Under the pieces are notes generated by a model. That model searched no databases and was not told the origin of the DNA. It worked only from the letters and a program-made list of their open reading frames with translations. From positions 1 through 51,724 of the forward strand of contig CAKMJS010000111.1 in assembly GCA_927405585.1 (NCBI GenBank): a stretch of 51,724 nt of DNA, given 5' to 3'. The number at the start of each line of letters is the position of its first letter. Position 1 is the first letter of the stretch. Below, one piece after another: positions 6,489 through 38,912 of this stretch. This DNA comes from an uncultured Desulfosporosinus sp. (GTDB lineage: Bacteria > Bacillota > Desulfitobacteriia > Desulfitobacteriales > Desulfitobacteriaceae). Both the position numbers and the translations under genes were made by a program.

Positions 6489-6780
6489 GGGACTTGTGTC
6501 ACACAGCGCTCGGTGCTTACGACGCCGAGCAAACTAACCGCATAAGCTCTTAAAGTAAGAGCGGGGTTCATCCTTCGGCGATTAGTATTATTTTAAAGAA
6601 CACGCCTACGGCGATAATCTCCACTGGAGACTATCGTACCAAATTCGCCATCCTTGGCTCAGTTGGCGGCAGTGCCCGTCCTTGGGCACTGCCCCGTATT
6701 TGGGGTCGCTTACACGGAAGTTTGCTTTTCGGCTTACGTAAAGACGTCGCGCTCGTGTGACACTGCGTCCCAGGCTTAGG
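6485..6780 (-). repeat. Intergenic repeat element, inverted copy of 38690-38912
   Basis: This stretch matches the reverse complement of 38690-38912 over most of its length: shared blocks include GGGACTTGTGT, GAGCAAACTAACCGC, TTCGCCATCCTTGGCTCAGT and GGGGTCGCTTACACGGAAGT. It carries an extra ~60 bases (about 6570-6637) absent from the other copy. It holds two hairpins with RTCCTT loops, at 6647-6658 and at 6668-6693 (10-bp perfect stem). On the minus strand these loops read AAGGAT and AAGGAC. Antisense open frames across it are not convincing genes. Confidence 0.85.
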
Positions 6781-22851: not shown

Positions 22852-23673
22852 GTGACGACCCAAAGTACGGTGATTTATGTCATTTCTGATGCACTGGGAG
22901 AGACGGCTGAGTTTGTTAGCCGGGCGGCGGCTGCACAATTTCTTGGTGTTAAAACCCGGATACGTCGAATTCCCTATGTACGAGATGAATCGCATCTGGA
23001 AGATATTATGGAAGAGGCTGTGGCCGAAAAGGCCGTCTTAGTTTATACATTGGTACTTAAAGAACTTCGGGAATATTTGGAGAAAACAGCTCTTGAGAAA
23101 GGGCTTATTACTGTTGATATATTAGGTCCCTTGATTGGCGCCCTGACTAGCCAAACTGGTCTGCAACCCACGCATATTCCAAATATTATCCATCGCTTAG
23201 ATGAACAGTATTTTCGTAAAGTGGAGGCGGTCGAATTTGCGGTCAAATATGACGACGGCAAAGATGCTCGCGGGGTTCTCTATGCCGATGTTGTACTGAT
23301 TGGCGTCTCACGAACTTCGAAAACTCCACTCAGTATGTACTTAGCCCATAAAGGGCTCAAAGCTGCGAATATTCCGTTGGTTCCAGAAGTCAGTCCCCCT
23401 GATGAACTGTTTTATATTTCCCCTAGAAAGGTAATTGGGTTAACCTTGCGGCCTGAATTGCTGAACACAATTCGAACGGAGCGCTTAAAAACCTTAGGGT
23501 TAAAGGCAGGCTCGGACTATGCAAACCTTGATCGAATTATGCAAGAGCTGGAGTATGGACGGAGTGTCATGAAACGTATTGGTTGTCCGATCATCGACGC
23601 GACTGGCAAAGCGGTCGAAGAAACCGCCAGCATAGTGTTAGAATTATTGTTTAAGGAGGACAGAAATGAGTAA
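22852..23673 (+). CDS. Pyruvate, phosphate dikinase regulatory protein (kinase/phosphorylase)
   Basis: Bifunctional enzyme that inactivates PPDK by ADP-dependent phosphorylation of its active-site threonine and reactivates it by phosphorolysis. The 273-residue product begins MTTQSTVIYVISDALGETAE and has the P-loop GVSRTSKTPLS and YVR-type motifs of the DUF299/YqfL family. GTG 22852 follows GGAGGAG with 9-base spacing; the upstream in-frame start at 22798 is in repeat DNA. Its stop overlaps ppdK by 8 bases, matching its substrate gene. Confidence 0.95.
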   Translation: MTTQSTVIYVISDALGETAEFVSRAAAAQFLGVKTRIRRIPYVRDESHLEDIMEEAVAEKAVLVYTLVLKELREYLEKTALEKGLITVDILGPLIGALTSQTGLQPTHIPNIIHRLDEQYFRKVEAVEFAVKYDDGKDARGVLYADVVLIGVSRTSKTPLSMYLAHKGLKAANIPLVPEVSPPDELFYISPRKVIGLTLRPELLNTIRTERLKTLGLKAGSDYANLDRIMQELEYGRSVMKRIGCPIIDATGKAVEETASIVLELLFKEDRNE

Positions 23674-26314
23674 GAAGTATGTATACTTATTCCAAGAAGG
23701 TAAGGCTTCCATGCGAGACTTATTAGGAGGAAAAGGGGCCAATTTGTGCGAAATGACCAATATTGGGTTACCTGTGCCTCCAGGATTTACGATTACTACG
23801 GAAGCGTGTAATGAATACTACAGCAACGACCAAAATGTCCCGGAGAGTTTATGGGAGGAAGTCTGGCCTGCTCTCGCGGAAGTTGAGGCGGTCACGGGTA
23901 AACGTTTTGGGGATAAATTGAATCCCTTGCTCGTTTCTGTTCGGTCAGGGGCTAAGTTCTCAATGCCGGGCATGATGGACACGGTGCTTAACTTGGGGTT
24001 AAATGACGATACCGTAGAGGCTTTGGCTGTGAATACGCAAAACGAGCGTTTTGCTTGGGATTGCTACCGCCGCTTCATACAAATGTTCGGGGATGTCGTT
24101 TTAGAAGTAGAGCATTATGTGTTTGAACATATTTTGGAAATCGCCAAAGAGAAACAAGGGGTCAAATATGACTCCGAACTCTCTCCAGAAAGCCTTAAAT
24201 GGATGGTCAGTGAGTATAAGAAAAAGATTGTGCGTAACACTGGCAAACCGTTTCCCATGGATCCAAGAGAACAGTTAATACTCGCGGTGATGGCGGTATT
24301 TCGTTCTTGGAACATTGACCGAGCTGTTTTTTATCGCAAAATTAATAATATTCCCCATGACATCGGCACGGCGGTAAACGTTCAGTCCATGGTCTTTGGC
24401 AATATGGGTGACGACTCAGGCACTGGTGTGGCCTTTACCCGTAACCCATCGACGGGGGAAAGCGTTCTCTATGGCGAATATCTAATGAATGCTCAAGGGG
24501 AGGATGTGGTGGCGGGTATCCGGACGCCTAATCCGATCGCCACCTTGGCAAAGGAAAATGCGGAGATCTACGAGCAGTTTGTGGATATTTCTAAGCGCTT
24601 AGAGACCCATTATCGCGATATGCAGGATATTGAGTTTACAATGGAGCGTGGAAAACTTTATATTCTCCAAACTCGAAATGGTAAACGAACCGCCTCAGCG
24701 TCAATTCGTGTGGCTGTCGAACTGTTCCATGAAGGTGTAATTACTAAAGAAGAAGCGGTCATGAGGATCGAACCGGATCAATTGGACCATTTACTACATC
24801 GTCGTATGGATACGGATGCTAAGCTCCAAGTTTTGGCGAAAGGGCTTCCTGCCTCACCGGGCGCTGCCTCCGGACGAATTGTCTTTAGTGCGGAAGAAGC
24901 AGAACGCTTAGGGAATGTCGGAGAGAAAGTAATTCTGGTTCGTACTGAAACGACTCCGGACGATATTCGGGGTATTTTGGCAGCTCAGGGGATCTTAACG
25001 AGTCGAGGCGGTATGACCAGTCATGCAGCGGTCGTCTCTCGCCATATGGGCAAACCTGCTGTTTGTGGGTGTGATGCCTTGAAGATTGACTATGCTAAAG
25101 GTTTAGTGGCTATAGAGGGAGTTGAGTATCTCCAAGGAACCATCCTGTCCATCGATGGATCAACCGGTCGGGTTATCAAGGGAGAGGTCTCTATGGTCGA
25201 TCCGGAACTGAGTGAAGGCTTTAAAGAGTTCTTGGACTGGGCCGATGAAATTTCTCGACTCAAAGTAATGGCGAATGCTGATAGTCCGACCGAAGCAACG
25301 AACGCTAGGGATTTCGGAGCGGTCGGGATTGGGCTGACTCGGACGGAGCATATGTTTATGGACCCAGAACGGATTCCGATCGTTCAAGATATGATCCTTG
25401 CGCAGAGTCTCGAGGAACGTGAAGAGGCCTTGACTAAGCTCTTGCCTATGCAGGAAGAAGACTTCTATGGCATTTTAAAAGCGATGCAGGGACTTCCTGT
25501 GACCATTCGCCTCCTGGATCCTCCGCTTCATGAGTTTCTGCCGCATTCTGAGGAGTTGGTAGTGGAGATCACAAAACTCAGAATTAATAAAAACGATCCA
25601 CAAGCCTTATTTAAGAAAGAAATTTTGCTCAGCAAAGTGCGAGCCTTAGCAGAACTTAACCCGATGCTCGGTCACCGTGGTTGTCGTCTAGGGGTGTCCT
25701 ATCCGGAAATCACGGTTATGCAAGCCCGTGCTATTTTCCAAGCGAGTGCACGCTTGATAAAAGAAGGGTATGATATTCATCCGGAAGTCATGATTCCTCT
25801 GATTATGGGCAAGGAAGAATTTCTGATGATGCGTAAGCTGGTGGATGACACCGCGGACTTAGTTATGAAAGAACAAGATGTCCATATTCACTATAAAGTG
25901 GGGACAATGATTGAGGTGCCAAGGGCGGCTCTTCTGGCGGATGAGATCGGAGAAGTAGCAGACTTTTTCTCCTTTGGGACGAATGATCTCACCCAAATGA
26001 CGATGGGCTTGTCACGTGATGATGCTCAGGGCAAGTTCCTCCCAGTCTATCTGGAAAAGAATCTGATGAAAACAGATCCCTTTGTGGTGCTCGATCGAGC
26101 GGGAGTTGGAAAACTCATTGACCTGGGTGTGAAGCTGGGCCGAAGCACCAATCCGAACCTCACCTTAGGAATCTGTGGTGAGCATGGCGGGGAACCTAAT
26201 TCGGTCGAGTTCTGCCACATGGTTGGACTGGATTATGTTTCTTGCTCTCCATTCCGCGTACCTATCGCGCGTTTGGCAGCTGCCCAGGCAGCTGTAAAAC
26301 ACAAGGGTCAATGA
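23666..26314 (+). CDS. ppdK: Pyruvate, phosphate dikinase
   Basis: Interconverts pyruvate, ATP and Pi with PEP, AMP and PPi. The 882-residue enzyme has an N-terminal ATP-grasp domain (GGKGANLCEMTNIGLPVPPGF). The phosphohistidine domain contains GGMTSHAAVVSRHMG, with catalytic His453 and the regulatory Thr451. A C-terminal PEP-binding barrel has LTLGICGEHGGEP with the catalytic Cys. Full length for bacterial PPDK. GGAGG precedes the ATG. It is coupled to its regulatory kinase and followed by a strong bidirectional terminator. Confidence 0.97.
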   Translation: MSKKYVYLFQEGKASMRDLLGGKGANLCEMTNIGLPVPPGFTITTEACNEYYSNDQNVPESLWEEVWPALAEVEAVTGKRFGDKLNPLLVSVRSGAKFSMPGMMDTVLNLGLNDDTVEALAVNTQNERFAWDCYRRFIQMFGDVVLEVEHYVFEHILEIAKEKQGVKYDSELSPESLKWMVSEYKKKIVRNTGKPFPMDPREQLILAVMAVFRSWNIDRAVFYRKINNIPHDIGTAVNVQSMVFGNMGDDSGTGVAFTRNPSTGESVLYGEYLMNAQGEDVVAGIRTPNPIATLAKENAEIYEQFVDISKRLETHYRDMQDIEFTMERGKLYILQTRNGKRTASASIRVAVELFHEGVITKEEAVMRIEPDQLDHLLHRRMDTDAKLQVLAKGLPASPGAASGRIVFSAEEAERLGNVGEKVILVRTETTPDDIRGILAAQGILTSRGGMTSHAAVVSRHMGKPAVCGCDALKIDYAKGLVAIEGVEYLQGTILSIDGSTGRVIKGEVSMVDPELSEGFKEFLDWADEISRLKVMANADSPTEATNARDFGAVGIGLTRTEHMFMDPERIPIVQDMILAQSLEEREEALTKLLPMQEEDFYGILKAMQGLPVTIRLLDPPLHEFLPHSEELVVEITKLRINKNDPQALFKKEILLSKVRALAELNPMLGHRGCRLGVSYPEITVMQARAIFQASARLIKEGYDIHPEVMIPLIMGKEEFLMMRKLVDDTADLVMKEQDVHIHYKVGTMIEVPRAALLADEIGEVADFFSFGTNDLTQMTMGLSRDDAQGKFLPVYLEKNLMKTDPFVVLDRAGVGKLIDLGVKLGRSTNPNLTLGICGEHGGEPNSVEFCHMVGLDYVSCSPFRVPIARLAAAQAAVKHKGQ

Positions 26315-26379: not shown

Positions 26380-26423
26380 GAGGGTACTGTCTCTTAAGTT
26401 ACAAGAGACAGTACCCTCTTTTT
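26380..26423. terminator. Strong bidirectional terminator after ppdK (copy A)
   Basis: Perfect 16-bp stem, 26380-26395 with 26403-26418, 7-base loop, then T-rich CTTTTTG on the plus strand. On the minus strand the hairpin is followed by CGCTTTTATTTTATT. It can stop both ppdK and the convergent FtsW-like gene. Related hairpins recur at 28575 and 32339. Confidence 0.92.
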
Positions 26424-26525
26424 GCTTGTTAAATCTTAGAACATACTTAATAAAATAAAAATGAGCCATTAAGAGATATTGCAATTTGGTATTTCTTAGA
26501 CTCCAGCATTTTAAGTTAAGATAAC

Positions 26526-27824
26526 TCAATTATAGCTCTGAGAAATTTTTTTTCGCCTATAAATGCTTGATATAATTCCAACTGTTGCTGCATTAATGAT
26601 AAGCTGTGAACCACCAAAACTTATAAAAGGTAATCCTAAGTCGCTTATAGGTGCTAGTCCTAAATTCATAGATATATTCCATAAAAACTGTACCGTTAGA
26701 ATAGATACAAAACCACTTATTAATAACTTAGCGTAATTAATCTTTACTTGTCTGGCTATACCAGCAATACGGACTAGGAACATTATAACAAAAGTAATTA
26801 ATAAGAGACTTGCTATCCAGCCAAAAGTATAGGTAATAAAGGCAAAAATAAAATCTGTATGGATTTCAGGTAATACTTGGTGATTAAACGTAAGCCCTTG
26901 TCCCCAAAGCCCTGAGTCAAAAATTATTTTACTCAACTGGATGTTTAAATATCCACTTCCTAGTGGATCTGCCGCAGGATTTAAAAATTTAAGGATTCTA
27001 TCTAGTCTATGAGGTTCAGTAATAGTTGATAGGATTAGTAAAGTCATAAATGTACCCAATATTAAGAAGAGTTTTTTTAATTTTGCGCCTGAAACAATCA
27101 TGATAACTATACAGGCTATACTATATATAGCTCCTGTTGAAATTGAAGGTGCCTTTAAAATTAAAATCAATGGTACTGCGAATAATGCTAAACCTTGCAA
27201 GCGCTGAAGATTGTTTTCCCAGTCTAATTTATTAATGATACCTGCCAGGGCTATTATGAACAATAATGGGCTAACTGCCACAAAGTTAACGTTAAATGGA
27301 CCAAAACTTAACCAACTTCTACTACCATTTACTTGATTTCCCCATAAAATAGTAAAAATGAGAAATAAAAGGGTTCCTAGATAAATATGTTTAGAATATT
27401 TTTCAAACTTTCTATAATCAAAAAAGTAAAAACCGATAATGGAGATTATACCCATAAATGAAAAGAGTAGACTTTTTTCGAAAATTTGGATATCGTATGC
27501 AAGCAAACCCTGGCTCTGGATAAAATACATTCCTAATAATCCTATATTTATAAAAAGAAAGGAAAATAATAAAATGCTCCATTCAGGCTTAGGTTTATGT
27601 ATTTTATTAAGCTGTTTTCCGATAATATCAGCATTACCCATTTGAACAATGGCCTTTTCGACAGCCTCCTCTTCGGAAGAACCTTGTGCTAGATGTTCTT
27701 CTAAAATTTCTTGGATATGAGTTTCTAATTCTAGTTTTACATCTTGATGAACATCACGAAATCTTATTTGTTTACATACTTCGCTAATATAATATTGGAT
27801 TTTTTTATTGTGATTTAAGTCCAT
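26526..27824 (-). CDS. FtsW/RodA/SpoVE family protein with N-terminal permease-prefix domain
   Basis: Polytopic membrane protein of the SEDS family, 432 residues. Residues about 5-75 form a soluble helical domain (DVKLELETHIQEILEEHL...EEAVEKAIVQMG) like the HAAS/permease prefix domain that often pairs with PadR regulators. About ten hydrophobic helices follow, with SEDS-like SRSWLSFGPFNVN and the C-terminal PFISFGGSQLIINAA. A peptidoglycan-polymerase or lipid-linked substrate role is possible but unproven. It overlaps the padR gene by 10 bases. Base composition is clearly more AT-rich than the ppdK region, suggesting acquisition. Confidence 0.88.
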   Translation of the reverse strand: MDLNHNKKIQYYISEVCKQIRFRDVHQDVKLELETHIQEILEEHLAQGSSEEEAVEKAIVQMGNADIIGKQLNKIHKPKPEWSILLFSFLFINIGLLGMYFIQSQGLLAYDIQIFEKSLLFSFMGIISIIGFYFFDYRKFEKYSKHIYLGTLLFLIFTILWGNQVNGSRSWLSFGPFNVNFVAVSPLLFIIALAGIINKLDWENNLQRLQGLALFAVPLILILKAPSISTGAIYSIACIVIMIVSGAKLKKLFLILGTFMTLLILSTITEPHRLDRILKFLNPAADPLGSGYLNIQLSKIIFDSGLWGQGLTFNHQVLPEIHTDFIFAFITYTFGWIASLLLITFVIMFLVRIAGIARQVKINYAKLLISGFVSILTVQFLWNISMNLGLAPISDLGLPFISFGGSQLIINAATVGIISSIYRRKKISQSYN

Positions 27825-28159
27825 GCAAGAACCTCCCCCGTTAAAATTTTATCAACCGTTGAACGGAATGTAACCCATTCTTGTTGTTTTTCTATTAATT
27901 CAGTTTTTCCTTTGGTAGTTAGACGATAGTATTTCCTTTGTCTACTGCCTTCGTTACCACACCAGTAGGATTCAATCATATTTTTAGACTCTAATGAGTG
28001 GAGAATAGGATAAAGGGTTCCTTCTTTAAAACTAAAGATACTGTTTGATTCCTTCTCAATTTCTTTAATCATCTGATAGCCATACATGGGTTCACGGTTA
28101 AGCAAGCTTAAAACTAAAACTACTGTACTACCTTTAAGCATTTCATTATTTACCTGCAT
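27815..28159 (-). CDS. PadR family transcriptional regulator
   Basis: Winged-helix repressor of 114 residues with the PadR pattern ALLSLLNREPMYGYQMIKEI-like start (LVLSLLNREPMYGYQMIKEI), then FKEGTLYPILHSLE and the basic wing RQRKYYRLTTKGK. The minus-strand ATG is preceded by AAGGAGGT. It overlaps the SEDS-like gene, so it probably autoregulates that two-gene operon. PadR plus a HAAS-domain membrane protein is a recurrent Firmicutes pairing. Confidence 0.92.
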   Translation of the reverse strand: MQVNNEMLKGSTVVLVLSLLNREPMYGYQMIKEIEKESNSIFSFKEGTLYPILHSLESKNMIESYWCGNEGSRQRKYYRLTTKGKTELIEKQQEWVTFRSTVDKILTGEVLAWT

Positions 28160-28819
28160 AAAGTTTTACCTCCTTTTAAAATGCATCATTCATCTATGCA
28201 TCGAGTATCTAGGTATAATTATAGATTAAATCTCCTTATCATGCAATATATTTATAATAACTCTTTGGCACAATTAATAGAAAGGGCCATATCGAAATCA
28301 AGGATATATTTAAAGTGTTTAAAAGCAGTAAAAATAATGTGTTAGACAAAGCAAATATGAAATTCAGAAGGATTTAATACTTTATGATTTATCCTGTTTA
28401 GTTAAGATTAAAAGTGTTCCATAATGTGAAGAACGGGATTAGTCCTAAAGTGTTTGCAGTCACTCAGGCGGCTATAATCAACAAGGGGCAATAAATTATA
28501 ACAACAGATAATATAGAAATAGCTTTCAGAGCCTTATACACCAAGGCTTTGAGGGTTTAGGTCTAAAAATAGTGAGGGTATTGTCTTTTAGTGATTTCAA
28601 GAGACAATACCCTACTTTCAAGCTGTTCAATAATATCTGTAACTACATTCTTAGTCATTGATCGGTATCCCATATATAAAAAACCCAGCAGGATTTGATT
28701 ATCCCATCGATGAGATAACTATTGTCTTTGAGATGGGCGTTGGATTCAGAAGTTAGACGACTGCCTAACGTATTTATTATTATGGAAAAATACGGTATAA
28801 TATTTCTGAGGTGATTTGA
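28160..28819. pseudogene. AT-rich interval with a ppdK 3'-end relic and terminator copy B
   Basis: At 28453-28494 the plus strand reads VFAVTQAAIINKGQ followed by a stop, matching the C-terminus of the intact PPDK (RLAAAQAAVKHKGQ). It is followed, as at ppdK, by a terminator-like hairpin (28575-28613, 15 pairs with one G-T). The block about 28510-28620 resembles 32270-32385. Upstream (28190-28440) I see only AT-rich sequence, including the padR promoter region. A TATAAT at 28796-28801 is a possible mntA promoter element. Confidence 0.7.
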
Positions 28820-29110
28820 ATGCAGGCTATTAAAGATATCATTAGTAAACGTGATCAGATTATTAGTATTGCGTCACATTACAAAATGTTTAATGTTAAA
28901 CTATTTGGTTCTGTACTTAGAGAAGAGGAAAATGCGGAAAGTGACATAGACTTTTTGGTTGATTGTGGAGATGATTGTTCTCTGTTTGACCTTATCTCAC
29001 TGAAATATGATTTAGAAGAAATTTTAGGTAGAAAGATTGATGTGGTCACTTCTGATTCTGTGCATTGGACTTTAAAGGACAAGATTGCACAGGAGGCTAG
29101 ACCCATATGA
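28820..29110 (+). CDS. MntA-like nucleotidyltransferase antitoxin
   Basis: Minimal nucleotidyltransferase of 96 residues with the catalytic signature GSVLREEENAESDIDFLVD (GSx...SDxD) and a third Asp in KIDVV. In characterised type VII toxin-antitoxin pairs, MntA AMPylates the HEPN toxin HepT and neutralises it. GAGGTG precedes the ATG. Its stop overlaps the HepT start (ATGA), as is usual for this pair. It lies in the accessory segment between two repeated terminators. Confidence 0.92.
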   Translation: MQAIKDIISKRDQIISIASHYKMFNVKLFGSVLREEENAESDIDFLVDCGDDCSLFDLISLKYDLEEILGRKIDVVTSDSVHWTLKDKIAQEARPI

Positions 29111-29433
29111 AAGATGACAAGGTATACCTGCAAAACATCCTTGAATGTATCGTGAAGATTGAAACATATACTAACTCTGGTAAACAAAAATTCATGAGTT
29201 CAGACCTCATTCAGGATGCGGTTATTCGGAATCTCGAAATAGTCGGAGAAGCTACAAAGAGAGTATCACAAGGAACCAAAGAACAACACCAAGAAATTCC
29301 ATGGAGACAAATGGCCGGACTACGCGATGTGTTAATACATGATTACATGGGAATTAGTCTGAAAATTGTTTGGAATGTGGTACAAAACGAGTTGCCTCAA
29401 CTTAAAGCTAAGATAATAGAATTATTGGATTAA
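29107..29433 (+). CDS. HepT-like HEPN ribonuclease toxin
   Basis: HEPN-domain protein of 108 residues. It has the RX4HXY active motif in RDVLIHDY, preceded by DAVIRNLEIVGEATKRVS, which is diagnostic of HepT (DUF86). The tyrosine in HDY is the expected AMPylation site. The active-site residues are intact, so the toxin is probably functional. It overlaps mntA by 4 bases. Confidence 0.92.
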   Translation: MKDDKVYLQNILECIVKIETYTNSGKQKFMSSDLIQDAVIRNLEIVGEATKRVSQGTKEQHQEIPWRQMAGLRDVLIHDYMGISLKIVWNVVQNELPQLKAKIIELLD

Positions 29434-29552: not shown

Positions 29553-32009
29553 GTGCAAACGGTCACAATGAATAATATCTGTGAAGAAGAAGTTTCTGCC
29601 CAACTCACAGAGATTAGGGACAGAATCAATTCTGGTTTTATCCCTGCAGATATTCAGGAGCAGGTCTTCATGTGCTTAAGAGAAACGGGCGTATTAGAAA
29701 GACCGCTAGCCGTTCGCTCATCGGCTACGGCTGAAGACTCAGCGAGAGCCTCTTTCGCCGGTGTGCACGAGTCTTTCTTAAACGTACACGGGCCAGAATA
29801 CCTCCTGTCTGCCATAAAAGGATGTTACGCCTCTCTGTGGACCACGAGGGCAGTGGCTTACCGTCGGAAAATGAACATCAAAGATGATGAGGTTCAGGCA
29901 GCAGTGGTGATTATGGAAATGTTAGAGGCTAAAGCTGCAGGGGTCGGTTTCACCTGCGATCCCCGCACGGGGCGGCAGGATATCTTATTGATTAACGCTA
30001 ATTATGGTTTGGGAGAATCGGTGGTTAGTGGAATGGTAGAACCGGACGAATACCAGCTAGATCCCACGCCCGCTTTGCCAACGGTATTAGCAAAAAAAAT
30101 TGGGTCAAAGAAGAGTCAAGTTGTCGTTAAAGAGGATGGAGGTACTGAACCTGTTCCTTCGGATAAACCCGAAAGAAACCAGGTGCTAGAGGACAGTCAA
30201 ATCAGGCAATTAGGCTTGCTCATGTTAAGAGTTTATGAAGCTTTGGGACAAGGGGAGCAACATCAAGATGTGGAATGGGTCTTTGATGGACAAGATTTTG
30301 TTATAGTTCAAGCTCGCCCGGTGACCGTTTTGCCGAGGTACACTTATGCCGAAATCAAGGATCAACTGGATATTTGGTCTAGTTCTGGTTTGCGAGATTC
30401 AAATGCCATGGTCCAGTCCACACTCAACTGGAGGTTAGCTGAACTACATATAACAGCAAATACGATCGAACCGATTCGATCCACCGGCTATCCTCTGGTT
30501 CCAGGTGTCCAGTATGTTAGACTGTTTGAAGGACGGATATATTTTAATCTTACCGCCTTTCAATGGCTTGACTATGACTCAGTGGGTTTAAATCCGGCCG
30601 ATTATGAATCGTCGTTTGGGTATCCTGTAGCAATAAAAATTAGGGACAAAAGTCCTTATCATGGGATTGTCGGGATAAAAAGACTAAGGCGATTGACAAA
30701 ACTTCTATTGAAGAATCTTAGCATTTGGCGACATGAAGGGCAATTTTATTCTCGAGTTAAACGTACTACAGAAAGTTGGCAGGAGAGCGGTTTCGGTGAC
30801 GTACTAGATCTGGCGTGTATTGACTTATATAACGATTTAACCAGTATGCTGAAAGAAGTAACTGTGGTCTTTTACGCAATGATGGCTGCTGCTATTTACC
30901 CACATATAGTATTAACTAAAGCGTTACATAAGTATTTCCCAGGCAAAGAAAATGGTATCATTAATGGCCTAATGGCTGGAGAAGCGCTAATTACCAGTGC
31001 TGAACACGGTTATCGCCTGATGGAACTGGCTGAGCTGGCGAGTAGTGATCAAGAGGCTCAAAGGTTCCTATCATCAGAGGATGATTCTTTGTCATGGGAA
31101 AAAGCACTTAAGGACGATTCCCCGTTCAAACAAACCTTCCGCGTTTTTCTTACGGAATTTGGGCATCGGGGGACTGACGAACTTGACATCATCAATCCTC
31201 GTTGGGGAGAAAGTCCTGCTTACCTCATGCAAACGATCAGAAACAGCATAAATACAGCTGACGTCAGTAAATTGAAGACTCGACAAAAGGAAATACACCA
31301 ACGGGCATTACAAGAGGTCCAGCAAAAGGTTCCTGTTTATCGACGACCTATCCTCAAGTATTGGCTCAAGCGAGCGATTAAAGGCGCAGAGATGCGAGAA
31401 ATGTCTAAGTCAATCTTAGTTAGGGTCTTTGGATCGTTTCGAATATTGGCGCTGGAGTTGGGTCAGCGCTTCGAGGAACGAGGAATTATTCAGCGGCAGA
31501 ATGACATTTTTCACTGTGCTTGGTCAGAAATCTTTTCGATTTTACGCAAGGAATGGGACGGTAAAGGATTAACAGTGCTGGTGGCTGAGCGAAAGGCCAG
31601 AAGACGTAAAATGGAGGAGACTGCCTTGCCAGTCCTAATAACTGGGGAAGTTCCTAGACATGTAGAGCCAGTAAAATTGAGTGCGGGCAGTTCCTTGACA
31701 GGATTTGGGGTGGCTTCAGGAAGAGCTGTTGGTCGAGCAAGACTAATTTACCATCCCAACGAAGGAGGAAGTTTGGAATACGGAGATGTCTTAGTGGCTC
31801 CATCTACTGACCCTGCCTGGACGCCACTGTTTTTGAGAGCGTCTGCAGTAGTAATGGAAACAGGGGGAGTTATATCCCATGGCGCTATTGTAGCCCGGGA
31901 GTACGGCATCCCAGCGGTGGTGAACGTCCTCGGAGTAATGAAATCAATTAGCGAGGGTCAGACGATAGAGGTCGACGGTGACGAAGGAAAAATTGTTCTG
32001 CATGACTAA
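29553..32009 (+). pseudogene. PPDK/PEP-synthase family protein, N-terminally truncated
   Basis: Related to PEP synthase and rifampin phosphotransferase-like enzymes, 818 codons from GTG 29553 (ATG 29568 also possible). It has the ATP-grasp part from PLAVRSSATAEDSARASFAG, VGFTCDPRTG and GLGESVVSG. A divergent ~400-residue central domain follows, then a C-terminal phosphohistidine domain GGVISHGAIVAREYG with His776. The usual N-terminal GGKGANLG segment, roughly 60-70 residues, is absent and upstream sequence has a stop. The frame is otherwise open, so it may still be translated, but full activity is doubtful. Which of rph- or ppsA-like is unclear. Confidence 0.7.
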
Positions 32010-32030: not shown

Positions 32031-32201
32031 CAGAACATTTTTTTCGGAAATGAGATTGCCCAAGGACGCATGAAAAATGTGGGTATCTTACCGAAGGAAC
32101 TTGCGGAAAACCTCTCTATTACTGGCCCAGTATTACGGGCTTCGGGAGTTAATTACGATGTTCGTAAAGCAGAACCGTACATCCATATTAGTGAAAAATA
32201 G
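32031..32201 (+). pseudogene. nuoD: nuoD fragment (NADH-quinone oxidoreductase subunit D)
   Basis: In frame from about 32034 the plus strand reads [20 protein letters not shown], then [19 protein letters not shown] and [10 protein letters not shown] before a [22 protein letters not shown] is the highly conserved NuoD core (usually GPMLRASG...DVRKAEPY). Only ~55 codons remain, with no upstream or downstream NuoD sequence in the window. This is a relic, not a gene. Confidence 0.8.
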
Positions 32202-32506
32202 TGATTGGTCCTTTATGATAGTGGCTGCCCAAGCCGCGATAAAAAATAAAGGGTCTATTGGTTAAAGCAACTATAGTAGACATAGCTTTCTAAGCCTTAT
32301 ATATCAAGGCTTAGAAAGTATATGTACAAAATAAAGTAAGGGTATTGTCTTTTATGATTTTAAGAGACAGTACCCTATTTTCAAGCTGTTACAGGAACTA
32401 CTGATACAATGAAAAGAAATCATGGGCTTTTATAAGGTTTATATTGACATCTTTGAGTTACAGTTGTAGACTATGTTCAAGGTTACACTTGTAACTTGAA
32501 AGGTGG
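32202..32506. pseudogene. Second ppdK 3'-end relic, terminator copy C, and blaI leader
   Basis: At 32219-32265 the plus strand encodes IVAAQAAIKNKGSIG and a stop, resembling the PPDK C-terminus AAAQAAVKHKGQ. A GCCTTATATATCAAGGC hairpin follows (about 32297), then the hairpin 32339-32376 (15 pairs, two G-T) closely related to 26380 and 28575. From 32444 on lies the blaI promoter/operator. Confidence 0.7.
32444..32493 (+). promoter_or_regulatory. blaI promoter with two TACAnnTGTA operators
   Basis: TTGACA (32444-32449), 17-base spacer, TAGACT (32467-32472). Two dyads match the BlaI/MecI operator core: TACAGTTGTA (32459-32468), which overlaps the promoter, and TACACTTGTA (32484-32493), which lies just downstream of the -10. 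This predicts autorepression of the blaI-M56 operon, relieved by proteolysis of BlaI. Confidence 0.82.
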
Positions 32507-32896
32507 ATGCAAGTGAGTAAATTAGTTTCAAAGATAACCGATTCAGAAGTTGAAGTCATGCGTGTTTTCTGGGAAGCAGGCCACGATCTTCCTATCTCGG
32601 ATATCAGAAGGACGCTTGAGCAGACTAGCAAATGGGAATCCTCAACAATCAAAACCTTGCTTCGTAGACTTTGTGAAAAGGGTGTAGTTCTAGTGACTAA
32701 AAAAGATGTATTTTATTATACGCCTTTGGTCAGTGAGGCAGAGTATAACGAATATACTACTCAAAGTTTGATCGACCGCTTATACTCTGGCAGTGCAAAA
32801 AACCTTGTAGCCTCTCTTTTGGGAAGCAAGAAGCTTGATGATTCAGACATAAGAGAATTACGTAATCTATTTAGGGTCGGTGATAGTGATGAATGA
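32507..32896 (+). CDS. BlaI/MecI/CopY family transcriptional repressor
   Basis: Winged-helix repressor of 129 residues: ITDSEVEVMRVFWEAGHDLP, then TIKTLLRRLCEKGVV and a dimerisation tail. The family is inactivated by cleavage triggered by a partner M56 metallopeptidase. The ATG follows AAAGGTGG. The stop overlaps the M56 gene start by 8 bases. Operator dyads lie directly upstream. Confidence 0.94.
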   Translation: MQVSKLVSKITDSEVEVMRVFWEAGHDLPISDIRRTLEQTSKWESSTIKTLLRRLCEKGVVLVTKKDVFYYTPLVSEAEYNEYTTQSLIDRLYSGSAKNLVASLLGSKKLDDSDIRELRNLFRVGDSDE

Positions 32897-34886
32897 AACT
32901 ATTAAGCTAATACTATCACTATCCTTATCGGCTAGCATTCTTGCAGTATTATTATTTGCCTTTAAGCCGTTAATAAGTAATAAGTTCTCAAAGTCTATTC
33001 AATACTGTCTTTGGATCGTAGTACTCCTAAGATTGGTACTGCCGTTTTCGTTTGAAACAAGTATTATGAATGAATTGTTTTATGGCAATCAAACGCCAGC
33101 AGCGACAGCTTCTCCGGCTATAGTTCAACCAATAGGTGGAAAAGTCGATAACAATTTCAAGACATCAATCCGGCCAGGTAAAGAAAGCACAGCTGACGGT
33201 ATAGATAATGATGATGCTGGCTACGGGAGAAGTTTTCTGAATATATTTAACCGGTATTCTTTCTACCTTTGGCTGCTTGGCGTAATAATTGCATTGACTG
33301 TTAACTTAGTTGGATATATCCGGTTTTCAGATCATCTGAAACAATCAAATAAGGCGGCTACTGATAAGGAAGTCGGAATGTTGGTTGCCCTGTTGAATGG
33401 GCGCAAAAATGTGAGGCTTGTTCGTAATCACTTTGTGACCACCCCAATGTTGATTGGAATAATAAGACCTTATATTATTATTCCAGATACTAAGTTTAAT
33501 GAAGTGCAGCTGAAAAACATCCTACTTCATGAAATAACTCATCTAAAGCATTTTGATATTGCGGTAAAGTGGTTAACCACGATAGCTTCAGCAATCCACT
33601 GGTTTAACCCATTGGTGTATTTTATTAAAAAAGAAGTCAACTATGCTTGTGAATTGGCCTGCGATGAAGCAGTTATCAAGAACCTCAGCCCGGCAGAAAA
33701 GCAGGCCTATGGTGACACATTAATATCTGTTGTAGCAGAACATAAATATCCTATTGGAGTATTGCAGGCGACTATGTGTGAAGAAAAAAAGAGCTTAAAA
33801 GAAAGATTATTAGCAATAATGAACCATAATAGAAAGTCAAAACCAATAATAATCTTATCAATAATCTTAATAGGGGTCGTAATATTTGGAGCATTATTTT
33901 TAGGAGCGGGGGTTGGAATTGGAAGAGATACTCCGCCCAACCTATATATCAGTGCAGAAGGGAGCAAAACAAAAGCAGCCCTTACCGGAACCTATGATCT
34001 GGCTGAGATTTCAAGACACAAGACACCCTATGTTGGCGATAATAGCAAGGTTTCAGCAATTGCAAGCAGTCTACCAATCCCTGACAACTACTTCAACCAG
34101 CGGTATATCTCTATGAAAACTGGTGAAAAGCCTTATGGGTTGACCATATATTACGAGGCGGCATCAGACGGTGAGTATGGAGCTGAGTGGCCAATTATTA
34201 CACCGGACTCTGTCATTGAAGCAAATTCACGAATGAATGCATTGGTGGTGTTCTGCATGATCGATAATCTTGACCAAGTGACCTTTGCATTTCGCAATTC
34301 ACAATCTAACGGTGAACTAGATACCTCAAAATATAATACTACATTTACGTTTCAAAGGGCTTCGTTTGAAGAAAAATACGGGAAGCTTACCGCATTGGCA
34401 GCGGACTTAGATAAACTGCAAAGTGTATTGAAAAATGACGGACATGAGCCTGACAAAGGCACGACTATTGAATCGCCGCTGCCTGAACTTACCGATGAAG
34501 AGGTGTCTGAAGCTCATGGGGTGGTGAAGGAATACTACCGTGCTATTGCTGCAAAGGACAATGAGGCCATACTTGCTACAATGCACCCCCGAGAGGGCCT
34601 TACAATGGGGAATGTGAAAAGTGGCAATGTCCAGCTTTATGGTACGGAAACACGTACCCTGATAACCATTGATTATGACTCCCAGGATCGGAAGCGCCGC
34701 AGTTATCGACCAAGTACTCATTATATATCTGATGAAAATGTCATTGTATTCAAGGTGAGTTTTGATATTAAATACCCACAGAAAGATGGAGGTCCATGGA
34801 ATGAAGGCATTTACGAGAATTGGAGCATGATACTAATTCGCGATGACCAGAATAGTCCGTGGCTTATCTATGACCAAGGTTATTAA
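32889..34886 (+). CDS. M56 family metallopeptidase sensor (BlaR1-like) with DUF4825 and DUF4829-like C-terminus
   Basis: Membrane metallopeptidase, about 665 residues from ATG 32889 (GTG 32880 also in frame). Four membrane segments lie around residues 5-25, 35-55, 125-145 and 315-335. The zinc motif HEITH with ELACDEAV is intact. Instead of the penicillin-binding sensor domain of classical BlaR1, the extracellular part has a DUF4825-like region (YVGDNSKVSAIASSLPIPDN) and a C-terminal DUF4829-like region (VVKEYYRAIAAKDNEAILATM). The inducing signal is therefore unlikely to be a covalent beta-lactam. Paired with blaI. Confidence 0.88.
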   Translation: MNETIKLILSLSLSASILAVLLFAFKPLISNKFSKSIQYCLWIVVLLRLVLPFSFETSIMNELFYGNQTPAATASPAIVQPIGGKVDNNFKTSIRPGKESTADGIDNDDAGYGRSFLNIFNRYSFYLWLLGVIIALTVNLVGYIRFSDHLKQSNKAATDKEVGMLVALLNGRKNVRLVRNHFVTTPMLIGIIRPYIIIPDTKFNEVQLKNILLHEITHLKHFDIAVKWLTTIASAIHWFNPLVYFIKKEVNYACELACDEAVIKNLSPAEKQAYGDTLISVVAEHKYPIGVLQATMCEEKKSLKERLLAIMNHNRKSKPIIILSIILIGVVIFGALFLGAGVGIGRDTPPNLYISAEGSKTKAALTGTYDLAEISRHKTPYVGDNSKVSAIASSLPIPDNYFNQRYISMKTGEKPYGLTIYYEAASDGEYGAEWPIITPDSVIEANSRMNALVVFCMIDNLDQVTFAFRNSQSNGELDTSKYNTTFTFQRASFEEKYGKLTALAADLDKLQSVLKNDGHEPDKGTTIESPLPELTDEEVSEAHGVVKEYYRAIAAKDNEAILATMHPREGLTMGNVKSGNVQLYGTETRTLITIDYDSQDRKRRSYRPSTHYISDENVIVFKVSFDIKYPQKDGGPWNEGIYENWSMILIRDDQNSPWLIYDQGY

Positions 34887-34988: not shown

Positions 34989-35981
34989 ATGAGTGAGGTT
35001 CAGAATATCCGTCAGCGGACTGAAAAGGAAGAGGAAGAACGACTTTCTCAATATGCTGCAAAAAGCAAAGAGGCCAGGCGTGAACGATTAGAAGAAGAGT
35101 GCCCGATCCGCACAAAATTTCAAAGAGATCGTGATCGGATTTTGCACAGTAAACCGTTTCGCCGCCTTAAACATAAGACTCAGGTTTATATTGCTCCTAC
35201 TGGGGATCATTACCGAACCCGTATGACGCATAGCTTGGAAGTGTCACAAATATGTCGGACAATTGCTCGGGGGTTACAATTGAATGAGGATCTCATCGAG
35301 GCAATTGCTTTAGGGCATGATGTCGGTCATACTCCCTTCGGACATGTCGGGGAGGAGGCTCTTCGACAGATTATCACTCACTTTGAACATAATGAGCAGT
35401 CGATACGTATTTTAAAGGTTCTGGCACGTGAGGGTGAGGGATTGAATCTCACAGAGCCGGTTCTGGATGGGATCTTACATCACACTGGTGAAGGCCTTCC
35501 GACAACTCTCGAGGGACAGATTGTGAAAACAGGAGATCGGATAGCATACCTTTGTCATGATTACGATGATGCCCTGAGAGCGGGTCTGCTGGTTAGGAGT
35601 GACTTGCCTGAGAGTGTTAAGCGGACACTCGGAGAGAAGCCAAGCGATATGATCACGACGATGGTAATTGACATGATTGAGGCCTCTATCGGGAAAAATT
35701 GCATTCTTCAGTCGGGTGAGGTCCAAGAAACAATGCAGGAATTCCGGCAATTTATGTTTAATATGGTTTACAATAGTGAAGCATTACGCGAAGAGCGTCG
35801 TAAAGGGCAGTACATTATTCAAGCTCTTTTTGACTATTATAGACGGGATACCTCCAAACTCCCCGAGAATCTATTGGTTTGGGCTGGCGGAGATGAAACT
35901 CAAGCTGTCGTTGACTATATATCTGGTCTGACTGATAATTACGCGATTGATCTGTTTGGAAGATTGTTTGTTCCTAGATAG
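34989..35981 (+). CDS. dgt: Deoxyguanosinetriphosphate triphosphohydrolase-like HD protein
   Basis: dNTPase-type HD hydrolase, 330 residues, cleaving dNTPs to nucleoside and triphosphate. Motifs: CPIRTKFQRDRDRILHS, FRRLKHKTQV, RMTHSLEVSQICR and GHDVGHTPFGHVGE (HD metal site). In clostridia this gene commonly follows ppdK and precedes dnaG-sigA; here it follows ppdK only after the accessory insert and is followed by repeat DNA instead of dnaG. TTGGGGGG precedes the ATG. Confidence 0.93.
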   Translation: MSEVQNIRQRTEKEEEERLSQYAAKSKEARRERLEEECPIRTKFQRDRDRILHSKPFRRLKHKTQVYIAPTGDHYRTRMTHSLEVSQICRTIARGLQLNEDLIEAIALGHDVGHTPFGHVGEEALRQIITHFEHNEQSIRILKVLAREGEGLNLTEPVLDGILHHTGEGLPTTLEGQIVKTGDRIAYLCHDYDDALRAGLLVRSDLPESVKRTLGEKPSDMITTMVIDMIEASIGKNCILQSGEVQETMQEFRQFMFNMVYNSEALREERRKGQYIIQALFDYYRRDTSKLPENLLVWAGGDETQAVVDYISGLTDNYAIDLFGRLFVPR

Positions 35982-36287
35982 AGAGGGTGCGCGAGACACG
36001 TCCTCAACCATGCGTTCGTCGTGCCAAACTAGGGATTTAATCCTTTCTTGCAAGCGGGCAGGGTTCCCGGCAAATGCGACATCCTTGTCGCAGTGCCGGC
36101 GGGAAACGTCCTTGTTTCCCCCCCTACCTATGAGAGGGCCTAAAGCCGAGTTTGGCTACGACGACCGCATAGGCGTCGGAGCGTGTGATCGTGGACCCTC
36201 TTCTGGCTTGGGGTCGACGGGGCTTAGGAACTAGGGCCGACGGAGAAGGCCGTAGTGATGTTTTCTTTAATGACGCAAAGACGCTTG
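35981..36287. repeat. Intergenic repeat, copy 1 of a ~300-bp element
   Basis: Starts at the dgt stop codon and aligns with 38365-38660 nearly end to end (shared GAGAGGGT, CGTGCCAAACTAGGG, CGACATCCTTGTCGCAGTGC, GAGTTTGGCTACGACGACCG, GGGGTCGACGGGG, TTAATGACGCAAAG). It contains GCGAC-ATCCTT-GTCGC (36076-36091), nested inside CCGGCA/TGCCGG, and GGGAAAC-GTCCTT-GTTTCCC (36101-36120). Minus-strand loops read AAGGAT and AAGGAC. The plus-strand open frame 35947-36234 is not a credible gene. Confidence 0.85.
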
Positions 36288-37289: not shown

Positions 37290-38366
37290 TTGTTGCGGGA
37301 AGATTTTTATCATCGACAAAAAAAGCATTTTCGGATTTGGAGATTTAGAGAATGGGCGCGAGGATTTCTCTTAGGATTAGTCAGTATTCTGATTATCTTG
37401 GGCTTGGCTTATGCCCTCAAAAGCGGGAGTTCTCGTGAATTAATTGGATTTCTAGCTCAACAGTCGTTTCCATTTGAAGCCATTTTACTAGAAGGAGCTC
37501 CGGGGTATTCTCAGCCTGAGCGCGCTCGCGTGGAGCTAACGAGGAATCAAGGGGCAGCGGTCAGTATGTTTCTATTAACGGGTGTTAACATAGCAGATCC
37601 CCGGACATTTTTCTTGGGGTATTTCTCTCCGCCACCACAAGGGCCGGTGTGGTTAGGGTGGGCTTATAATCCCGATGATCCAGAGTTTGAAGGGCCGATT
37701 CTTGAACCCATTGAACCTCAGATACCGAGTGAAAACTCGGATCAGCCTCCTGTGCTCATACCGGGGGCAAAAGAAATTTTGGTAGGAATCTATAATACGC
37801 ATAACAGTGAGTCTTACTCAGGTGACGGTGGAGCTGAACATGAGTTTGGTGAAAACGGGGATGTGGTATCGGTAGGAGAAACACTTAAGAAAGCTCTAGT
37901 ACGGAATGGAATCGGTGCCGTTAACTCGCTACAAATACATGATGCTGTGGAATTCATGAAAGCATATAGTAAATCGGTCACTACGGCAACACAGATGACC
38001 AAAGATTATCCTTCTATGAAGGTTTTAATTGACCTCCACAGAGATGGCTTACCCGCTGGAGTTCCGAAACGAACAATTATGGTAAAGGGACAGCTGGTAA
38101 GTAGGGTGCTAGTGGTGATAGGAAAGATGAATCCGAACTGGCAAAAAAATGAGGCTTTAGCAAAGGAACTCATGGCCTTAGGGGAAAAGAAATATCCGGG
38201 GCTATTTATGCCGAACATTAGTTATGCAGCGGATGCGCGGTACAACCAACACCTCTCGAACGGCGCGTTGCTGTTAGAGTTTGGGACTCAGTTGAATACG
38301 CTAGGAGAATCTAATCGGGCAGCAGAGGCTGTGGCGGAGATTTTGGCAGATTATTTTAAGAAGTGA
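37290..38366 (+). CDS. spoIIP: Stage II sporulation protein P (SpoIIP)
   Basis: Peptidoglycan amidase/endopeptidase of the SpoIID-SpoIIM-SpoIIP engulfment complex. From TTG 37290 the product is 358 residues: an N-terminal cytoplasmic basic stretch, one transmembrane segment (GFLLGLVSILIILGLAYAL, about 27-45), then the extracytoplasmic catalytic domain. That domain has VGIYNTHNSESY (catalytic His), LIDLHRDGL (His) and LLEFGTQLNT (Glu). Start chosen because AAGGGGG at 37274-37280 is 9 bases upstream; TTG 37293 is also possible. gpr, its usual neighbour, is absent. Confidence 0.94.
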   Translation: MLREDFYHRQKKHFRIWRFREWARGFLLGLVSILIILGLAYALKSGSSRELIGFLAQQSFPFEAILLEGAPGYSQPERARVELTRNQGAAVSMFLLTGVNIADPRTFFLGYFSPPPQGPVWLGWAYNPDDPEFEGPILEPIEPQIPSENSDQPPVLIPGAKEILVGIYNTHNSESYSGDGGAEHEFGENGDVVSVGETLKKALVRNGIGAVNSLQIHDAVEFMKAYSKSVTTATQMTKDYPSMKVLIDLHRDGLPAGVPKRTIMVKGQLVSRVLVVIGKMNPNWQKNEALAKELMALGEKKYPGLFMPNISYAADARYNQHLSNGALLLEFGTQLNTLGESNRAAEAVAEILADYFKK

Positions 38367-38660
38367 GAGGGTCCGCGAAACACGTCCTCGGCCACGCGTC
38401 CGCCGTGCCAAACTAGGGCTTTAAATCCTGATGCAAGCGGTAGGGTCCCCGGCAAATGCGACATCCTTGTCGCAGTGCCGGCGGGAAACGTCCTTGTTTC
38501 CCGCCCTACTTCAGGTAAGGAATTTAAAGCCGAGTTTGGCTACGACGACCGCAAAGGCGTCGGAGCGCGTTATCGCGGCCCCTCTGGCTGGGGTCGACGG
38601 GGATTATGAGCGACGGAGAAGGCCGTGGCGCTGTTTGCGTTTAATGACGCAAAGGCGCTT
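38365..38660. repeat. Intergenic repeat, copy 2 of the ~300-bp element
   Basis: Starts at the spoIIP stop codon and is the direct repeat partner of 35981-36287. Hairpins: GCGAC-ATCCTT-GTCGC (38458-38473), nested inside CCGGCA/TGCCGG (38449-38481), and GCGGGAAAC-GTCCTT-GTTTCCCGC (38481-38504, 9-bp stem). On the minus strand these carry AAGGAT and AAGGAC loops. Together with copy 1 it brackets the rpsT-spoIIP block. Confidence 0.87.
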
Positions 38661-38689: not shown

Positions 38690-38912
38690 AGAAGGGACGC
38701 AGTGTTACACGAGCGGGACGTCTTTACGTTAGCAGACTAGCAAACTTCCGTGTAAGCGACCCCAGACACGGGGCTGAGCACAAGGATGTGCGAAGCCAGC
38801 AACTGAGCCAAGGATGGCGAATTTGCTGGGAACCCCGCACCCACTTTAGGAGCTTACGCGGTTAGTTTGCTCTGCGTCGTATGTACTGAGCGCTTGTGTT
38901 ACACAAGTCCCA
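38690..38912 (+). repeat. Intergenic repeat, plus-strand copy of the 6485-6780 element
   Basis: Reverse-complement match of 6485-6780. Plus-strand hairpins: GGCT-GA-GCAC-AAGGAT-GTGC-GA-AGCC (38772-38797) and GCC-AAGGAT-GGC (38807-38818). The 38782 hairpin carries ACAAGGATGT. It ends with the GGGACTTGTGT terminal block in inverted form. The overlapping open frame 38431-38865 crosses both repeats and is not credible as a gene. Confidence 0.85.

Follow-up and report, generated by a model that had tools for sequence, protein, structure and literature searches.

Clostridia appear to collect foreign gene blocks at the 3′ end of ppdK

Introduction

Why should the end of a gene be repeated downstream of the gene itself? 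In the DNA of an uncultured Desulfosporosinus sp. studied here (the whole stretch of 51,724 nt, hereafter the window), the 3′ end of ppdK and its terminator hairpin recur twice between that gene and dgt, with accessory genes in between. We examined these repeats in the window, in the genus and in other Clostridia. It appears that in these bacteria blocks of foreign genes have been added one by one behind ppdK, each with its own copy of the ppdK tail.

Results and discussion

Three ppdK ends in the window

The features of the locus are listed below with their coordinates, strand and, in brackets, the basis of the assignment or further detail.

23666..26314, + strand: ppdK, the anchor gene (ORF; last codons FRVPIARLAAAQAAVKHKGQ-stop)
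26276..26314, + strand: copy A, the true ppdK end and ppdK-proximal site (core GCAGCTGCCCAGGCAGCT with the CAG/CAA codon at 26285-26287, then tail and stop, both variable among genomes; stop 26312-26314)
26381..26417, + strand: terminator hairpin of copy A (aligns with the hairpins of B and C)
26526..28159, − strand: cargo of segment 1, a SEDS (FtsW/RodA/SpoVE) protein at 26526-27824 and a PadR regulator at 27815-28159 (Pfam)
28412-28613, + strand: copy B as a whole, repeating the ppdK 3′ end and terminator
28412..28451, + strand: leader of copy B, which begins AAGTGTTCCATAAT and is foreign to ppdK (similar leaders in other Clostridia)
28452..28494, + strand: core of copy B, a ppdK-like end with its stop at 28492-28494 (alignment)
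28575..28613, + strand: terminator hairpin of copy B (alignment)
28820..29433, + strand: cargo of segment 2, a pair of MntA-like (28820-29110) and HepT-like (29107-29433) genes (Pfam Polbeta/NTP_transf_2 and HepT-like)
29553..32009, + strand: cargo of segment 2, a PEP-synthase-like protein with PPDK_N and PEP-utilizers domains, not a ppdK copy (Pfam)
32036..32181, + strand: nuoD fragment of 146 nt, abutting copy C at its shortened leader (90% identity with the nuoD of this genome, G000:C94:8495-8640)
32182-32376, + strand: copy C as a whole, repeating the ppdK 3′ end and terminator
32182..32213, + strand: leader remnant of copy C, its first nucleotides lost at the nuoD junction (comparison with other leaders)
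32214..32265, + strand: core of copy C, a ppdK-like end reading IVAAQAAIKNKGSIG-stop, with the stop at 32263-32265 (ORF, alignment)
32339..32376, + strand: terminator hairpin of copy C (alignment)
32507..34886, + strand: cargo of segment 3, from copy C to dgt, a BlaI-family repressor at 32507-32896 and an M56 (BlaR1-like)/DUF4825/DUF4829 protein at 32880-34886 (Pfam)
34989..35981, + strand: dgt, the distal border gene of the interval (ORF, Pfam)

A preliminary description of this DNA had read copy C as a repeated ppdK 3′ end followed by a hairpin, and this proved to be real. The alignment of copies B and C extends over some 220 nt with a local score of 135 (best of 300 shuffles, 29), and their likeness begins before the ppdK-like part. 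The scores of A with C (58; best shuffle 32) and of A with B (47; best shuffle 27) arise mainly from the terminator. The same description had called the copies relics of the gene's 3′ end. The ppdK-like end and the terminator are indeed repeated, but the copies are not plain relics, as their ppdK-like core is preceded by a leader of about 45 nt, for which ppdK itself has no counterpart. Copy B, used as a query against the whole genome (4.48 Mb, 181 contigs), matched C with 83% identity over 114 nt, and no full copy besides B and C was found there at E≤1.

The accessory DNA had been divided into a PadR/SEDS segment and a MntA-HepT/PEP-synthase-like segment. Both stand, but a third segment (BlaI/M56) and the nuoD relic had been missed.

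Parts of this cargo recur in relatives. Positions 26380-28260 of the window are 84% identical to positions 481-2355 of G007, the first segment behind ppdK in that genome. MntA-HepT blocks with 92-97% identity were found in the islands of G011, G021 and G026; in NCBIfam, the HepT-like protein scores 60.7 bits (cut-off 60) and the MntA-like one 48.5 bits, under its cut-off of 60. The PEP-synthase-like gene is 95% identical to its counterpart in the G011 island, where this gene and the MntA-HepT block stand in reverse order relative to the window. Relatives of the BlaI/M56 gene pair are present in stretches of G002 and G023 and on contig G011:C15. The nuoD fragment (32036-32181) is 93% identical to a nuoD-like gene of the G011 island. 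Since that island has a longer nuoD-like gene directly 3′ of the same PEP-synthase-like gene, the fragment is probably what is left of a second nuoD that was carried as cargo and decayed in the window.

This fragment tells us that decay does happen here, and the copies might themselves be the products of decay of tandem ppdK paralogues or segmental duplications, a reading to which a PEP-synthase-like gene with PPDK_N and PEP-utilizers domains could also be thought to point. However, that protein groups with PEP synthases (its top NCBIfam matches, every one below cut-off) and its gene is itself shared cargo. Moreover, the copies keep only the last ~15 codons of ppdK together with a leader that does not come from it. 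Full-length tandem ppdK paralogues, which the preliminary description had named as the sign of simple gene decay, were sought and none was found: at E≤1e-60 there is one ppdK match in 28 of the 29 genus genomes and zero in the other. We regard decay as a hardly credible source of the repeats.

Anatomy and distribution of the repeats in the genus

A profile built from 26 full copies shows the order of the parts: a leader (AAGTGTTCCATAATaGTGAAAAAttGaGATTGGTC), a core (TTTTGATAGCtGCcGCtCAGGCgGCtgT), a variable tail with a stop and then the terminator hairpin. Copies adjoining ppdK are without the leader. The repeats are about 250 nt long and typically 70-90% identical, and their ppdK-like part keeps the ppdK coding sequence in register.

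The genus set comprised 29 Desulfosporosinus-group genomes and 38 stretches, 21 with the ppdK and dgt region (window included) and 17 partial. The profile gave 47 leader-bearing matches, spread over 18 of the 29 genomes, and not one lies on the opposite strand. In 40 cases ppdK or dgt is present in the stretch as well, so their orientation was not imposed by the analyst. Among the seven without such an anchor, six lie on contig G011:C15, whose stretch was turned to read them forward, and one on G016:C58. Within the genus, the leader-bearing copies are nearly confined to this locus. Minus-strand profile matches were mostly palindromic terminators, with one partial copy inverted in G017.

No leader copy was detected in 11 of the 29 genomes, and the whole interval is covered in five of these (G002, G005, G008, G017 and G019). 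The DNA of copy C matches 27 of the 29 at E≤0.01, a count that includes terminator-only matches. The distance between ppdK and dgt ranges from 1.4 kb (G019) to 106 kb (G007), with several islands split by contig ends. The preliminary description had expected relatives to show different cargo and the same gene-end duplications, and both were found among the Desulfosporosinus-group genomes.

In G019, which has no repeat, the ORF directly behind ppdK resembles a REP-associated (Y1) transposase, as judged by eye, and related ORFs occur in stretches of G002, G020 and G023. This would suit a reading in which a Y1 (RAYT-like) transposase has spread the units, as dispersed terminator or REP-like elements. 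Against it stands the finding that nearly every leader copy is at the same locus and that the copies have a single orientation and carry the ppdK coding sequence in register, which makes such a spread very improbable in our opinion.

Two leader-bearing sites deserve separate mention. Contig G011:C15 (L111-L113; 41.8 kb), which carries six leader copies, is separate from the ppdK contig of G011. It may represent a second array, be set apart by a gap in the assembly or come from a contaminant. In G015, a leader with the left part of the core (G015:C1:4149463-4149527; L261) lies far from ppdK between unrelated genes and is possibly a secondary site.

Abrupt breaks in the core and changes of whole segments

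For the change-point test, 351 pairs among 27 ppdK ends were compared, and we kept the 15 with an identity of 86% or more over the stretch of up to 200 nt that precedes the CAG codon. Three of these run on into homologous sequence, leaving 12 informative pairs. Similarity breaks abruptly 5-18 nt after the first base of the CAG codon in nine of the 12 and at 28-36 nt in the other three; the pairs share genomes and are not independent. Between G021 and G018, identity is 98% before the break and 27% after it. Because the sequences break just after the CAG codon, the PpdK tail after AAAQA differs between genomes. An in-frame stop is kept in all 27 ppdK ends read, though this tail varies.

Whole segments are present in some genomes and absent from close ones. 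In nine such comparisons, repeats were found at the edges in both genomes in five cases, in one genome in one case and in neither in three; two of the five both-genome cases are a single G018 event. One indel (G006/G010) is interior and bounded by repeats. In G018, 6.7 kb lie between two repeats, where G021 and G017 go straight to the next gene. Since the far border of this extra segment is without the usual leader, it may be another element type that uses the same site.

Common cargo also stands at different ranks. A two-gene block occupies the first place behind ppdK in G022 but an interior one on G011:C15, with 95% identity and homology that begins in the core; such breakpoints, being BLAST ends, are approximate. 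In G005, G006 and G010, the distal 10.6 kb is common at 92-95% and the proximal parts differ. Because the three are alike distally and unlike near ppdK, comparison of their sequences suggests insertion at the ppdK end.

Occurrence beyond the genus

A scan of 84,980 species genomes with a leader pattern returned 44 stretches, Desulfosporosinus included. In 37 of them the leader runs into the core, in two it is without a core and five are chance matches. From outside the genus, we analysed 19 larger stretches of 18 genomes, namely 15 of the 19 genomes reached by the pattern and three from a search with an Anaerovirgula copy. They contain 38 leader copies, which lie on a single strand within each stretch. 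Where ppdK is present (16 stretches), it lies upstream of the leader copies and on their strand in 16 of 16, and seven of these stretches also contain dgt. The hosts include Natronincola and Sinanaerobacter, both of the Peptostreptococcales, as well as Lutispora of the Lutisporales and Desulforadius, which NCBI places in the Eubacteriales.

The leader consensus of 36 outside copies is the same as that of 44 genus copies at 42 of 45 positions, an agreement that is partly built in because most outside copies came from a pattern fixing about 20 leader bases. In a search of 82 genomes of the window's class with the natural Anaerovirgula copy, 21 gave a match at E≤1e-6, and six of these are outside the genus. 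Full-length PpdK proteins of the outside Clostridia are 56-75% identical to that of the window.

Cargo and the search for a recombinase

Cargo was surveyed in the islands of 20 relatives in which the same contig carries both ppdK and dgt. Genes were called by a simple ORF rule, which gave 406 ORFs of at least 120 aa; these fall into 202 clusters, and 323 of the 406 are on the ppdK strand. The Pfam scan covered 195 of the 202 cluster representatives, the rest being longer than 800 aa or spanning two sequence pieces. According to Pfam, the cargo comprises transporters, enzymes and regulators (rve transposase cores in 2/117). Phage_integrase was absent among the matches listed, which were the best 25 of 206 and the best 25 of 81 Pfam families.

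A search with PF00239 (serine recombinase domain), which covered the islands of 11 genomes, had no match at E≤0.001, and one with PF00589 found no intact gene in the islands of nine genus genomes, with one degraded fragment in G018. This tyrosine-recombinase fragment (G018:C22:380104-380283) lies beside the first repeat behind ppdK, within the extra 6.7 kb. Some 19.5 kb into the G015 island, which extends from ppdK to dgt, lies an 80-aa fragment with 52% identity to a G014 large serine recombinase. Local profiles and tblastn, applied to all genus stretches, added only this piece and weak G018 matches.

Outside the genus, no intact tyrosine integrase was detected by local profile in 18 of the 19 stretches. 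The exception, G070 (L283), has a XerC/XerD-like gene that scores under NCBIfam cut-offs and may belong to the backbone. At the contig end of an Alkaliphilus MAG (G074, L281), a partial large serine recombinase was recognized by a local profile only, with no Pfam or NCBIfam match. It is followed by two ORFs, which we take to resemble a Gabija defence pair (OLD-type ATPase and UvrD-type helicase), and then by a leader copy. No recombinase found is intact and clearly tied to a leader-type site; the finds are relics and fragments of both tyrosine and serine types. The search for a free element bearing the site gave no match in plasmids or phages, and the viral_contigs set gave one chance-looking match and later none.

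A possible resemblance between the leader and a Xer half-site was set aside because the break sits more than 40 nt away from it.

If the islands tested hold no intact recombinase, could the cargo have been moved without one, by RecA-dependent homologous recombination between old ppdK-end repeats? Repeats of the length and identity observed here would allow it, and the interior indel with repeats at its bounds is what it would produce. It leaves unexplained, however, why a leader absent from ppdK is similar between Clostridia with 56-75% identical PpdK, why the leader copies have a single orientation and why the breaks fall in the core, though the terminator is conserved too. We therefore consider RecA-dependent exchange unlikely.

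Probable serial integration at the ppdK 3′ end

The explanation we favour, with a probability of about 0.78, is serial site-specific integration (accretion) of recombinase-less cassettes at an attB in the ppdK 3′ end. The gene end would act as the attachment site, and the segments, or cassettes, would integrate successively by site-specific recombination within a core of ~20-30 nt (GCNGCNCAGGCNGC) that encodes the conserved AAQAA. On its ppdK side, each segment would supply a new ppdK tail, stop codon and terminator, and ppdK would therefore stay intact. The far side of each segment would consist of the conserved leader and the core. Serial insertion would then yield a row of segments in ppdK orientation, parted by repeats of leader, core and terminator. 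Because the segments tested carry ordinary cargo and no intact recombinase, the enzyme would either work from elsewhere or have gone with a former helper element. What the sequences show directly are the repeats, their orientation and near-confinement to the locus in the genus, the abrupt break in the core, the presence or absence of whole segments, the cargo common to different ranks and the occurrence across Clostridia. We infer from them that a dedicated recombinase, of whatever kind, acts here rather than chance homologous exchange, that there are circular intermediates and that the process is still active.

Repeated insertion at the ppdK 3′ end had already been proposed in the preliminary description. 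Our results support that proposal but amend it in that the copies add a conserved leader and the segments are without an intact recombinase.

Comparison with known systems

Integron cassette arrays have modular cargo, a fixed anchor site and repeated sites in one orientation, and the same holds for the ppdK arrays. It is therefore worth asking whether an integron relative is at work, with the repeats as its attC-like sites, which would fold as single strands and be recombined by an IntI-type integrase. The array layout with its fixed anchor would agree with this, as would the co-orientation with ppdK of 323 of the 406 ORFs (at least 120 aa) and a possible palindrome around the core. In some copies the core, together with GATTGGTC and GACCAATC on its flanks, looks palindromic. 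The attC-like hairpin was dropped, since its arms gave no sign of coupling within the junction: the outer arms reached 176 of 280 pairs, where shuffling gave 170 on average and 0.16 of the shuffles did as well, and in the same test the inner arms gave 0.38 and the centre 0.79. Within one cassette, the outer arms gave 0.38 and the inner arms 0.01, the latter being the sole coupling result in favour. Furthermore, no integrase (intI) was found beside the anchor. In contrast to integrons, the ppdK arrays are thus without intI at the anchor, attC folding is unsupported, and the segments are often multi-gene and partly inverted. An integron relative strikes us as quite improbable.

The preferred reading, accretion at a gene end, has closer parallels. 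The features of accretion arrays seen here are repeats of the target-gene end at segment borders, a gene end kept in frame and borders at a fixed point. In CIME/IME accretion, as described in an excerpt of PMC5704250, decayed or integrase-less elements with att flanks stack tandemly at a gene end, and integrase-less segments stacked in this way are what the excerpt and the ppdK arrays have in common. The arrays differ in having up to six leader copies per contig, cargo that is mainly metabolic, transport and regulatory, and an occurrence in several genera.

The architecture of the ppdK arrays also matches, at another gene, that of the ssrA islands of Dehalococcoides, as far as the excerpted account in PMC3146451 goes. 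These islands stand in tandem downstream of a single gene, all within 100 kb, and each has a repeat of that gene's 3′ end as its border. Upstream of the repeat comes a short motif that the gene itself does not have. Of the islands, 15 are without integration genes, and 16 retain an integration module whose serine recombinase, DsiB, is Ccr-like (PMC3146451, excerpt). There the target is ssrA, whereas here it is ppdK and the repeats include the stop and terminator. Another difference, which extends to SCC, is that no intact Ccr/DsiB-type module was found in the ppdK arrays tested, where fragments like large serine recombinases occur in G015 and the Alkaliphilus MAG.

In Bacteroidota, ppdK itself is the target. 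According to an excerpt of PMC11005914, conjugative transposons of the PvCTn family insert in the ppdK 3′ end at AAQAA codons, where the attB measures 20 bp, restore the stop codon, give rise to imperfect direct repeats and use a related set of integrases. The same ppdK codons (AAQAA) serve as the putative attB in the arrays described here; by eye, the window's ppdK does not fit the published degenerate attB motif of PvCTn at every base. As the same excerpt has it, PvCTn elements are conjugative and carry their own integrase and T4SS genes (PMC11005914), whereas the Clostridia arrays are rows of smaller segments with a conserved leader and, in those tested, without an intact recombinase. The ppdK attachment site known in Bacteroidota would thus be joined to a further set in another phylum.

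A broader claim can be formulated, and we see its chances as evenly balanced. It holds that this is a cassette-accretion system previously undescribed in open-licence PubMed Central papers, one that is widespread among Clostridia and has the ppdK 3′ end as its anchor. In this system, recombinase-less cassettes would share a conserved site of leader and core, and a trans-acting recombinase would insert them one way. Such a gene-collecting array would be like an integron in role, not in enzyme. If this is right, the interval from ppdK to dgt is one locus where many Clostridia gather accessory genes, its recombination site is readable and directly searchable, and cassettes can be catalogued without knowing their cargo. 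This raises the question of which recombinase serves arrays that encode no intact one.

Other repeats in the window

Two further repeat pairs were noted in the window. A direct repeat of about 290 nt, in pieces that are 76-96% identical, occurs after dgt and again 2.4 kb further on (35981-36268 and 38365-38641) and showed no link to the ppdK repeats. Additionally, positions 6505-6771 and 38694-38894 form a long inverted repeat pair (132 and 65 nt, 86%) whose members lie 32 kb apart.
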